NCBI GenBank assembly: GCA_018812465.1
Contig: JAHJCS010000277.1
Coordinates: 1 to 13,495, forward strand
Length of the DNA: 13,495 nucleotides
Direction: 5' to 3'
Source: Nanobdellota archaeon
GTDB taxonomy: Archaea; Nanobdellota; Nanobdellia; Woesearchaeales; UBA12501
Part shown: piece by piece, positions 4,646-13,495 of the stretch
How the letters are laid out: each line of letters opens with the position of its first letter
Numbering within the stretch: position 1 is the stretch's first letter
Notes under the pieces: model-generated
Told to the model about the DNA's origin: nothing
Databases searched by the model: none
Seen by the model: only the letters and a program-made list of their open reading frames with translations
Position numbers and translations under genes: made by a program

Positions 4646-6268
4646 ATGCCGAAGAAAAAGAGGAAAAAGGCTAAGCAGAACAGGCCAAAGGCTAAGAAAG
4701 CCAGGCAAAACAGGTCCAAGGCAAAGCCTGATAGCAAGGCAAAGAACACAAAGACTTCTCTACAGGTTCCTAAGCTAAAGAAAGCTCCTTTAAGACTCGA
4801 GAATGTTATGCTTATAGTCATGGATGGCTGGGGAATAAGGGCCTCAAAAAAAGACAATGCAGTAAAGCTTGCTCACACGCCGAATATTGATTTCATAGCA
4901 AAGCATTATCCTGCAGGAATACTGTGCGCTTCTGACGGCTGTGTCGGCCTGCCAAAAGGACAGATGGGCAACAGCGAAGTCGGCCACATGAACATAGGCG
5001 CTGGAAGGGTTGTGGGACAGGAGCTTGTTATAATATCAAAGTCAATAAAGAACAGGAGTTTCTTCAGGAACAAAGCATTGAATGATGCTTTTAAGAAAGG
5101 CAATAGTGTACATATAATGGGGCTGCTTTCTGATGGAGGAATACACTCTCACATAGAACATCTGTATGCTCTGCTCAAGATGGCCAGGAAATACAAGAAG
5201 TATGTCCATCTTCATGCATTCCTTGACGGAAGAGACACCCCAAAGAGATCTGCTTTAAAATATATCAAAGCAGTCAGCAAAAGACTCAAAGGCATAGGAG
5301 AGATTGCGACAATCTCAGGCAGGTATTATGCAATGGACAGAGACAGAAGGTGGGACAGGACAGAGAAAGCCTACAACTGCATTGTACTAGGACAGGGAAC
5401 ATACTCCCAGGATGTTTTTGACGGACTGAATGAGGCTTATAGAAGAGGGGAGAATGATGAATTTGTCCAGCCCACACTCACATCCCTGACATACAAAGGG
5501 ATATATGATGGAGATTCAGTGATATTCTTCAATTTCAGGGAGGACAGGGCAAGGCAGCTGACTAATGCCTTCATTGAGAAGGAATTCCTTGATTTCAGAA
5601 GAGAGAAGAAGAATGTATTTTTTGTAGAGATGGTGAGATATGAGAAGAATGACAAGACAGCTGTGGCATTTGAGCAGCTCAGCCCTCCAAATGTTCTTGG
5701 AGAGATAATAAGCCAGAACAAGATGAAGCAGCTAAGGATAGCAGAGACAGAGAAATACGCGCATGTTACCTTCTTCTTCAATGGATCAAGAGAGACTCCA
5801 TTCCCAGGAGAGAGCAGGATACTTGTGCCATCACCAAAAGTAGCCACTTATGACCTGCAGCCTGAGATGAGCGCAGCAAAGATAAAAGAAGAGGTCATAA
5901 GAAGCATAAAGACAAAGCAGTACAATCTGATAATACTAAATTTCGCAAACCCTGATATGGTAGGCCATTCAGGAATGCTTGATGCAGCGATAAAGGCGTG
6001 CGAGACAGTTGATTCCTGTGTTGGAGAGATAGTAAAAGAGATGCTTGCCATAAACGGAGCAGCAGTCATAATAGCAGACCATGGAAATGCAGAGGAGATG
6101 GCTGGTCCCAAGGCAACAACACATACAACAAACCCTGTTCCATTCATGCTGGTATCCAATTATAGGTACAAGATAAAGAAGAGAGGTGCATTGTGCAATG
6201 TTGCTCCGACAATCCTTAAGCTGCTTGGAGTAAAGAGGCCTAAAGAGATGGATAGTGGAATGTTATAA
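4646..6268 (+). CDS. gpmI: cofactor-independent phosphoglycerate mutase with basic N-terminal extension
   Basis: Interconverts 3- and 2-phosphoglycerate in glycolysis and gluconeogenesis through a phosphoserine intermediate and two metal ions. The 540-aa protein has all GpmI signatures: metal Asp60 in IVMDGWG, catalytic Ser110 in GQMGNSEVGH, DGRDTP (194-199), GRYYAMDRDRRWDR (225-238), NFREDRARQ (296-304), Asp437/His441 in NPDMVGH, ADHGN (477-481) and His493 in THTTNPVP. It is the bacterial-type GpmI, not the archaeal ApgM. Ser110 lies about 48 residues later than in typical GpmI, because residues 1-48 form an added tail rich in Lys, Arg, Ala and Gln (KAKQNR and KKARQNR repeats). A TATA box 27 nt upstream supports this start. 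The tail may bind RNA, DNA or ribosomes; its role is unknown. Confidence 0.96.
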   Translation: MPKKKRKKAKQNRPKAKKARQNRSKAKPDSKAKNTKTSLQVPKLKKAPLRLENVMLIVMDGWGIRASKKDNAVKLAHTPNIDFIAKHYPAGILCASDGCVGLPKGQMGNSEVGHMNIGAGRVVGQELVIISKSIKNRSFFRNKALNDAFKKGNSVHIMGLLSDGGIHSHIEHLYALLKMARKYKKYVHLHAFLDGRDTPKRSALKYIKAVSKRLKGIGEIATISGRYYAMDRDRRWDRTEKAYNCIVLGQGTYSQDVFDGLNEAYRRGENDEFVQPTLTSLTYKGIYDGDSVIFFNFREDRARQLTNAFIEKEFLDFRREKKNVFFVEMVRYEKNDKTAVAFEQLSPPNVLGEIISQNKMKQLRIAETEKYAHVTFFFNGSRETPFPGESRILVPSPKVATYDLQPEMSAAKIKEEVIRSIKTKQYNLIILNFANPDMVGHSGMLDAAIKACETVDSCVGEIVKEMLAINGAAVIIADHGNAEEMAGPKATTHTTNPVPFMLVSNYRYKIKKRGALCNVAPTILKLLGVKRPKEMDSGML

Positions 6269-6289: not shown

Positions 6290-6323
6290 TGCACTTGAAG
6301 TACTTTATTATTGTGCATTTTTT
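6290..6323 (+). terminator. hairpin plus T run after phosphoglycerate mutase
   Basis: TGCAC (6290-6294) pairs with GTGCA (6313-6317), and six T follow (6318-6323). It could end the mutase transcript, or it could be a 5' hairpin of the RNA that follows. The stem is only 5 bp. Confidence 0.4.
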
Positions 6324-6460
6324 CCTAGCCTCGGCAACAAATACCTGCAAATAGACCATGCCGAGGTGAAGCTTCCTGTCCCCTCCTGAGAGTTCAACAA
6401 GGACTGGAAAGCGTCACCTTTTCCATGTCAAGAAGTTGTGCTATGGAGGAAAAGGCTAGG
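6324..6460 (+). ncRNA. structured RNA with four-way junction, copy A
   Basis: A 137-nt stretch with no credible gene that folds into four helices meeting with no unpaired bases. P1: 6324-6330 with 6454-6460 (7 bp). P2: 6331-6335 with 6360-6364, loop 24 nt. P3: 6365-6381 with 6401-6418, a long arm with one A-G mismatch, one T-T mismatch and a bulged A, closed by GTCC/GGAC around a 19-nt loop. P4: TTTTCC 6419-6424 with GGAAAA 6448-6453, loop 23 nt holding GTTGTGCTATGGA. A second copy at 13252-13386 on the other strand keeps the same fold with different bases in several pairs. Copy A lies between the mutase and the promoter of the helicase gene, so it is probably an independent transcript. It does not look like tRNA, RNase P, SRP or C/D RNA. 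The fold was done by eye, without energy calculation. Confidence 0.78.
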
Positions 6461-6483
6461 GGGCATTATCAATACACAAAAGA

Positions 6484-6491
6484 TTTAAATA
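6484..6491 (+). promoter_or_regulatory. TATA-like box; leaderless start of the helicase gene
   Basis: TTTAAATA is centred 26-27 nt before the ATG at 6514, and no ribosome-binding site is present, so a leaderless transcript is likely. It lies after the RNA at 6324-6460, which is therefore probably not the leader of this gene. Confidence 0.65.
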
Positions 6492-6513: not shown

Positions 6514-7188
6514 ATGACTTTAGAATCACTTAAATCAAAAATACCTCCTGACCTTTATGAGGTACTAAAACAAGATGGCATAACCCATCTCAGGCCCAGC
6601 CAGAGAAAAGCGATCCAGGCAGGCCTTCTTGATGGAAAGAACCTTCTTGTGTGCACTCCTACTGCATCAGGAAAGACTTTGATCGCAGAGCTTGCTGGAG
6701 TCTCTTCAATAATGGAGAGGAAAGGAAAATGCATCTATATAGTTCCTCTGAAATCCCTTGCGACAGAGAAGTACCATGAGTTCAAGAAGAAGTATGACAA
6801 GTTCTTCAGGATTGCATTATCCATAGGTGATATGGATGCGTCTGATCCTTATCTGAGGGATTATGATCTCATAATCTCCACATCAGAGAAATTGGATTCC
6901 CTGATAAGGCACAGAGCAGACTGGCTCAAGGATATAAAGACAGTTGTTGTTGATGAGATCCATCTCCTCAATGATCCTGGCAGAGGACCTACTCTTGAGA
7001 TTCTCATAACAATACTCAGGCAATTGCTCAAGAATGTGCAGATACTTGGACTCAGCGCAACAATAGGAAATCCAGAAGAGCTTGCTGCATGGCTTGGAGC
7101 AGAGCTTGTCATGGATGATTGGAGACCAGTAGAGCTGAGAAAAGGAGTATACCTTAATGGTGAGATAGAATTCAGATATTCAGATTAG
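6514..7188 (+). CDS. Hel308-type helicase, RecA1 domain only (truncated or split)
   Basis: The first motor domain of a Hel308-family superfamily 2 helicase, an enzyme that in archaea acts on stalled replication forks. Visible in 224 aa: a Q-motif region (HLRPSQRKAI, 25-34), Walker A CTPTASGKT (47-55), motif Ia PLKSLA (78-83), STSEKLDSL (122-130), Walker B DEIH (147-150) and motif III SAT (181-183). It ends just after WRPVELRKGVYLNGEIEF, the usual linker to the second RecA domain. RecA2, the winged helix and the ratchet domain, about 480 residues, are missing, so it cannot be a complete helicase alone. The last codons overlap the end of the convergent gene by 17 bp. It is either a remnant of a deletion or the N-terminal half of a split gene. 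The promoter and all motifs of this domain are intact. Confidence 0.88.
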   Translation: MTLESLKSKIPPDLYEVLKQDGITHLRPSQRKAIQAGLLDGKNLLVCTPTASGKTLIAELAGVSSIMERKGKCIYIVPLKSLATEKYHEFKKKYDKFFRIALSIGDMDASDPYLRDYDLIISTSEKLDSLIRHRADWLKDIKTVVVDEIHLLNDPGRGPTLEILITILRQLLKNVQILGLSATIGNPEELAAWLGAELVMDDWRPVELRKGVYLNGEIEFRYSD

Positions 7189-13174: not shown

Positions 13175-13210
13175 TAGATTGCACGCTTTTTCCTGGCCTC
13201 AACTAATGAT

Positions 13211-13247
13211 TTAAGCATTTGAAGTTTGAGATTTTTATAGTGCTTAA
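13211..13247. repeat. 9-bp inverted repeat beside RNA copy B
   Basis: TTAAGCATT (13211-13219) faces AGTGCTTAA (13239-13247) around a 19-nt loop, with one G-T pair. It starts 4 nt beyond the 3' end of RNA copy B (minus strand), so it could be a 3' hairpin or end signal of that RNA. Nothing like it follows copy A. Confidence 0.4.
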
Positions 13248-13251
13248 TCCT

Positions 13252-13386
13252 CCTAACCTTTCCTTCCATAGCACAAACAGTAGAGATAGGAAAGGTGAGG
13301 CTTTTATGTCCTCTGTGAATCTTAATCATAGGACAAGAGGCCTCACTCGGCCAGGTCAAGCTGCTGCGAGAACAGGCCGAGCCAGG
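13252..13386 (-). ncRNA. structured RNA with four-way junction, copy B
   Basis: A 135-nt minus-strand relative of the RNA at 6324-6460. Numbered from its own 5' end at 13386, it folds as P1 1-6/130-135, P2 7-12/35-40, P3 41-47/86-92 with an apical GTCC/GGAC stem around a 19-nt loop, and P4 93-98/124-129. Again no unpaired base lies between helices. Compared with copy A, P1 uses G-T pairs where A has A-T and G-C, the base of P3 is GTGAGGC/GCCTCAC, and P4 starts with C-G instead of T-A. The P4 loop keeps GTTTGTGCTATGGA, and the P2 loop keeps GACC before its 3' strand. It lies in the 376-bp end region, convergent with the thermosome gene, with no clear gene after it. I see no convincing promoter in the 109 bases upstream. 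Confidence 0.75.
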
Positions 13387-13495
13387 ATTATTTCTTTAAT
13401 GATCTATAATACTAGCTAAAATCATCTAAACTTTTCTCATATCTTATTTTGCCTCTTTTGTCCCAGTTCCGTAAGTAATTTACCATTTTAGAATA
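13387..13495. other. AT-rich end region without a visible gene
   Basis: These last 109 bases show no frame with coding character on either strand and no clear TATA box. They should contain the promoter of RNA copy B if it is transcribed independently. A weak TTTAGA-type or ATTATAG stretch on the minus strand is the best I can offer. Confidence 0.3.

Follow-up and report, generated by a model that had tools for sequence, protein, structure and literature searches.

The question raised by this locus is whether a 137-nt segment that can close into a perfect four-way junction between two protein-coding genes is a structured RNA or a DNA element. The window, that is, the whole stretch of 13,495 nucleotides analysed, corresponds to contig C186 of genome G000 (1.35 Mb, 79% complete). 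The segment at 6324–6460 has as its 5' neighbour a phosphoglycerate mutase gene (4646–6268, domains iPGM_N and Metalloenzyme) and as its 3' neighbour a gene for a small DEAD-box protein (helicase, 6514–7188). A sequence-only reading had described 7-bp pairing of the segment ends enclosing three hairpins, one of them with GTCC/GGAC around a 19-nt loop, and had considered the segment the best candidate for an undescribed RNA family. The end pairing and this arm are read directly in the DNA. The features of the segment, termed copy 1, are as follows (R2 is the covariance model of the repeat family described below).

6291..6316, + strand: outer motif of copy 1, GCACTTGA at 6291–6298 followed by GTGC at 6313–6316, from the motif count in copy flanks.
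6324..6460, + strand: element copy 1, an inverted pair of hairpin modules forming a four-way junction; model R2 98.2 bits (+), 65.9 bits (-) at 6322–6462.
6324..6330, + strand: CCTAGCC, the 5' side of the closing stem, pairing with 6454–6460; over 19 aligned copies, 87.7% of the cells of this stem are paired.
6331..6364, + strand: arm 1, the hairpin of the left module, TCGGCA/TGCCGA; 98.2% of cells paired, two-sided changes in 5 of 6 pairs.
6365..6418, + strand: arm 2, a central imperfect hairpin linking both modules, with the base GGTGA/TCACC and GTCC (6378–6381) and GGAC (6401–6404) around the 19-nt loop.
6419..6453, + strand: arm 3, the hairpin of the right module, TTTTCC/GGAAAA, carrying GTTGTGCTATGGA; 91.2% of cells paired, two-sided changes in 6 of 6 pairs.
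6454..6460, + strand: GGCTAGG, the 3' side of the closing stem, pairing with 6324–6330 (7 bp), read directly.

The junction of copy 1 is gap-free, positions 6330/6331, 6364/6365, 6418/6419 and 6453/6454 being adjacent with no unpaired base. This register, which is also that of the family alignment and of the covariation, agrees with the perfect junction proposed from the sequence; in the minimum-energy fold, arm 3 is displaced and three nucleotides (6451–6453) stay unpaired. The forward RNA fold has an energy of -48 kcal/mol (z -3.5), and none of 200 shuffled sequences folds as low, in agreement with the earlier view that the fold exceeds chance. The reverse strand folds about equally well (-51.7, z -3.15, 2 of 200 shuffles as low), and folding with DNA parameters gives z -3.57 (2 of 200 shuffles as low). 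Arm 3 aligns with arm 1 once reverse complemented, i.e., it is inverted relative to arm 1. Judged by reading alone, a TATA-like stretch (6484–6491) between copy 1 and the ATG of the helicase suggests that copy 1 lies outside the helicase leader. As for comparison with an empty site, in genome G002 the mutase and the helicase are separated by about 1.2 kb of different sequence, and the corresponding contig of the sister genome G001 (Candidatus Woesearchaeota archaeon Bin_534) starts 515 bases upstream of the helicase. A search against Rfam 15 returned no match for the segment (best score 11.6 bits versus a cut-off of 59) or for related loci, so the earlier reading, which could match it to no RNA class or riboswitch it considered, stands and a known RNA is rejected.

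The second locus with the same fold, announced from the sequence alone, is also present in the window, on the opposite strand. It folds at -56.4 kcal/mol (z -4.1) into a clean four-way junction; a plain DNA search with copy 1 places it at 13245–13357.

13215..13222, + strand: outer motif of copy 2, GCATTTGA, with one mismatch, from the motif search in flanks.
13251..13388, - strand: element copy 2, four-way junction; model R2 99.5 bits (-), 91.7 bits (+).

Beside copy 2, at 13185–13202, lies a degenerate fragment, TTTTTCCTGGCCTC, which resembles the start of another module.

The two window copies belong to a larger repeat family. A plain DNA search with 6290–6480 as the query matches 14 places in G000, the segment itself included. 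The family was extended by a relaxed motif search, and covariance model R2 was then built on alignment A1, which comprises 19 full copies and omits C26 and every partial copy. In G000, R2 gives at least 73 matches (150 of 360 candidates scored); merged by hand across strands, they represent at least 39 distinct places, at least 20 of them full length, defined as a best R2 score above 90 bits. Further homologs with covarying helices, named beforehand as the check to make, are thus found, arms 1 and 3 being the covarying ones. Every one of the 20 full-length copies scores on both strands; C26, which is outside the model, reaches 92.2 and 87.6 bits on its two strands. A tRNA control in the same genome yields matches on one strand only at 20 of 20 places. 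Eighteen of the 20 copies are clear of called reading frames. Their flanking genes are tandem in seven cases, convergent in three and divergent in three, and the remaining seven copies have no called gene on at least one side; there is no fixed relation of the copies to gene direction.

The basic unit of the family is a hairpin module of about 50 nt, TCCTaGCctcgCC ... gctgcA...tgA ... GgCgagGTGAgGc, and the full-length copies of G000 consist of two such modules inverted around a spacer of about 40 nt. Left halves and reverse-complemented right halves show an identity of 0.53, compared with 0.54 among right halves, 0.63 among left halves and 0.40 in the unreversed control, and a given hairpin type can sit on the left in one copy and on the right in another. 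The element is made of one module paired with itself in inverted order.

In the four-way structure 90.2% of the A1 cells are paired, and the covariation score is 0.314 versus 0.146 after shuffling (0 of 500 as high), with the signal concentrated in arms 1 and 3. The closing stem has a two-sided change in one pair, and one of its pairs is broken in 11 of 19 copies; the basal helix of arm 2 is 89.5% paired with two-sided change in no pair, and the distal GTCC/GGAC helix is 81.6% paired with two-sided changes in two of four pairs. The two helices that make the junction, closing stem and basal helix of arm 2, therefore vary little and hardly covary. An alternative fold into two separate extended hairpins pairs 86.4% of the A1 cells and is the form preferred by unconstrained RNAalifold. 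Given the near-invariant junction helices and this alternative, it is the hairpins that are independently supported.

When the pairs are enforced, the junction is lower in energy than the two hairpins in 5 of the 19 copies with RNA parameters and in 3 of 19 with DNA parameters, copy 1 giving -40.0 for the junction versus -28.0 for two hairpins. When folding is left free, the ends close in 12 of 19 copies on the forward and 11 of 19 on the reverse strand with RNA parameters, and in 8 and 6 of 19, respectively, with DNA parameters. These models suggest that both the junction and the two-hairpin form are available to the element, and that the four-way junction may simply follow from two inverted hairpins. 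Such a pair can give a cruciform in double-stranded DNA and a four-arm fold in single-stranded DNA.

The sister genome carries the module in another arrangement. G001 contains 108 units in 49 direct arrays of one to six units (1.12 Mb covered), with a period of 78–84, spacers of about 30 nt and no neighbouring units inverted. Of the 45 arrays uncut by a contig end, 40 are followed within 150 nt by a second, loosely matched terminal repeat, which starts like GGCAGCAAC. Hairpins and spacers are combined in 53 distinct ways among 69 units, and the types are weakly associated (mutual information 1.57 versus 1.46 shuffled, 18 of 1000 as high). Some copies in G000 likewise consist of a single module joined to the second repeat, e.g., C136, C142, C215 and C225.

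The second repeat (GGCAGCAACAAC...GTTGTTGCTGCC; L117:3036–3175 in G001) resembles a three-way junction by eye. It is also dispersed on its own, with 14 matches in G000, 20 in G001, four in G035 and one weak match in G056 among 60 genomes, some of them partial. A third hairpin-rich repeat (L034:1240–1440, L035:3200–3520), with ends like GGCAACAACAATGGC / GCGCCATTGTTGTTGCC and variable inner hairpins, adjoins some half elements.

The distribution of the family is narrow. The covariance-model search of relatives proposed by the sequence-only reading uncovered further copies in G000 and G001, and nothing beyond one genus: these two were the only genomes with R2 matches among 60 related genomes, and again among 352 genomes of the order, where stricter filters were applied and few candidates were scored per genome. 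No R2 match occurs in G002, which completes the three genomes of this genus. Completeness is 79% for G000, 91% for G001 and 76% for G002.

Several positions are nevertheless shared between the two genomes. The synteny test was restricted to the 28 places, out of 39, that had long flanks; 21 of these were testable in G001. A unit is present at the orthologous G001 place for 9 of 21 copies, representing seven distinct sites (the same-site pairs being C118/C21 and C142a/b), versus 1 of 46 control gene ends; the Fisher p value of 5.6e-5 is computed on partly non-independent copies and with control gene ends unmatched for spacer length. At C84 and C18 the G001 array is framed by both flanking genes, and the flanks of C93, like those of C70, are next to each other in G001 with no unit in the gap. 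The shared positions exceed the expectation for a recently jumping element. As shared and differing sites coexist, some positions appear to be older than the species split, with modules rearranged since, and others to be species-specific.

Two further observations concern individual loci. On G000 contig C142, the stretch that separates two half elements has the opposite orientation to its G001 counterpart (L023:786–903 and L023:3544–3640 versus L105), as would be expected after a flip by recombination between repeats. At L023:240–510, by reading, the 5' part of a tRNA and its upstream region occur twice with a hairpin-rich insert between them; the intact tRNA is at 436–507.

The rival explanation that survives best is a multi-copy structured RNA family with a transcript from every copy and with the four-way junction as the fold in which the RNA functions. 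Selection on an RNA should favour G-U replacing A-C on one strand. In 19 copies from G000, three of them flipped to a common orientation, 20 G-T and 13 A-C cells were counted, and 16 and 10 in the 108 hairpins of G001. The tRNA acceptor-stem control gave 7 and 0 for 10 G000 tRNAs, retained from 19 loci after those longer than 95 nt or uncalled were dropped, and read in the best-pairing register, which biases it slightly. The ratio in the G001 hairpins does not differ significantly from that in the tRNA stems (16:10 versus 7:0, p 0.07). Folding energies on the forward and reverse strands are -51.4 and -50.7 for the 19 copies (p 0.70), -17.05 and -16.86 for the 108 G001 hairpins (p 0.78), and -31.15 and -29.68 for the 10 tRNAs (p 0.29). 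In a smaller set of 37 G001 units the reverse strand was lower in energy (inner stem p 0.007), an effect that is gone in the larger sets. Since the energies of tRNAs also fail to separate the strands, these tests have limited power; they show no significant strand preference and lean toward DNA without being decisive.

The both-strand matches of the model and the inverted-module composition are more telling than the strand tests. An RNA family would accommodate the slight excess of G-T over A-C in both sets, within the low power of these tests, the z values of both window copies and the strong covariation of arms 1 and 3, but these two arms represent a single module in opposite orientations, there is hardly any covariation in the junction helices, and both strands fold about equally and are scored by the model in all 20 full copies. 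It would also agree with the fixed direction of the G001 arrays relative to the terminal repeat and with the sites common to G000 and G001; the lack of a relation to gene direction, the place of copy 1 outside the helicase leader as read from the TATA-like stretch, and the negative Rfam result speak against it. Overall, this explanation is unlikely. As to the undescribed RNA family proposed earlier, the family is real and, as far as searched, undescribed, but its RNA nature does not fit the both-strand matches, the inverted module, the lack of a significant strand bias (in low-power tests), the free gene direction and the confinement to 2 of 352 genomes; the RNA interpretation of the segment is probably wrong.

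Somewhat less probable still is a classical MITE, i.e., a non-autonomous element that has terminal inverted repeats and derives from a DDE-type insertion sequence. Inverted CCT...AGG ends, constituting terminal inverted repeats, are present in 19 of 19 aligned copies, copy number is high, placement is intergenic, and the outer GCACTTGA motif occurs with at most one mismatch on the left side of 7 and the right side of 8 of the 20 full copies, versus 1.25% in shuffled flanks. However, the motif is found within one mismatch on both sides in only one of the 20 copies, C75; no target-site duplication is visible by eye in the flanks of full copies, and C75 itself has no exact duplication. Internal sub-hairpins, direct arrays and mixed modules likewise exceed what a simple terminal-repeat element would contain.

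The search for a mobilising enzyme covered three families, PF01797, PF07282 and PF00589, in incomplete genomes. For the Y1 transposase PF01797, there are no matches in G000, G001 and G002, and one of 10 genomes searched (G008) is positive; the control gives a signal in 5 of 14 genomes. The TnpB zinc ribbon PF07282 was not found in the six genomes searched, including G000, G001 and G002, and a TnpB guide RNA is rejected on this ground. The tyrosine recombinase family PF00589 has no match in G000 (79% complete) and one in G001. A viral origin is also rejected: a 17-base terminal-repeat pattern matched five viral stretches, all without the surrounding repeat, and two other patterns matched none. 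Folded single-stranded hairpins of the attC type, shuffled by a tyrosine recombinase into short-spacer arrays, would account for the direct arrays of one to six hairpins with a period of 78–84 and recombined spacers and for the recombinase of G001, but an integron attC array is very improbable and is rejected, as the 2,865-base locus of that recombinase contains no unit by pattern, no PF00589 recombinase is detected in incomplete G000, spacers of about 30 nt are too short for genes, and the full-length copies of G000 are inverted pairs.

The best explanation, with a probability of roughly 0.7, is that the segment is one copy of a palindromic, modular DNA repeat that is specific to this lineage and works like REPIN or BOX elements. 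The family is a dispersed pseudo-palindrome matched on both strands, with inverted arms, no significant strand bias, free gene direction and confinement to one genus among the genomes searched, which together argue for a DNA repeat. Palindromic modular repeats are known in bacteria, where a trans-acting enzyme is believed to assist their multiplication. By analogy with BOX elements and with what is proposed for REPINs, the most likely mechanism would be a trans-acting enzyme that works on the folded hairpins and lets the modules of this DNA repeat spread and recombine in DNA form. A more specific version is tentative: an independently evolved archaeal counterpart of REPIN and BOX elements, in which a dedicated enzyme of a Woesearchaeota system, recognising the folded hairpin or the four-way junction, might assemble hairpins and AT-rich spacers, as inverted pairs or as directional arrays, at intergenic sites retained over long periods. 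No description of such repeats in Woesearchaeota or DPANN was found in the titles and abstract openings of the open-licence literature. If confirmed, the DNA repeat would mean that modular palindromic repeat systems exist in very small archaeal genomes. For RNA discovery, it is a caution that inverted DNA hairpins can yield strong covariation together with a perfect multi-way junction; a candidate RNA family can be checked quickly by asking whether its model gives scores on both strands.

Among known systems, archaeal MITEs are described as short, multicopy elements with inverted ends in Sulfolobus, Halobacterium and others (PMC10969869). The present element shares these three properties as there described, but no target duplication is seen and no parent transposon was identified with PF01797, PF07282 and PF00589. 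REPINs, or REP dimers, consist of two inverted short palindromes with a pairable spacer, occur between genes in high copy and also as singlets, and show compensatory changes; some REP dimers combine different elements (PMC3116915, PMC3733652). The element is alike in being composed of two inverted palindromic units and a spacer, foldable, multicopy and intergenic. It differs in its DPANN archaeal host, and REPINs proper are rejected: the consensus of 38 half elements, by reading, has no GTAG/CGTC tag, and no Y1/RAYT transposase was found in the genomes searched. Of these enzymes, the IS200-like subclass is the only one that a survey of complete genomes published in 2018 reports for Archaea (PMC6006769). 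The streptococcal BOX elements, boxA-boxB(n)-boxC, are portrayed as composite, with variable tandem modules, different end modules and predicted stem-loops (PMC3049150). The G001 arrays, with their variable tandem units and distinct terminal repeat, are similar to BOX elements in architecture as portrayed there, and the window copies are arranged otherwise. Unlike BOX, the module described here also occurs as inverted pairs, and its spacers vary along with its hairpins.
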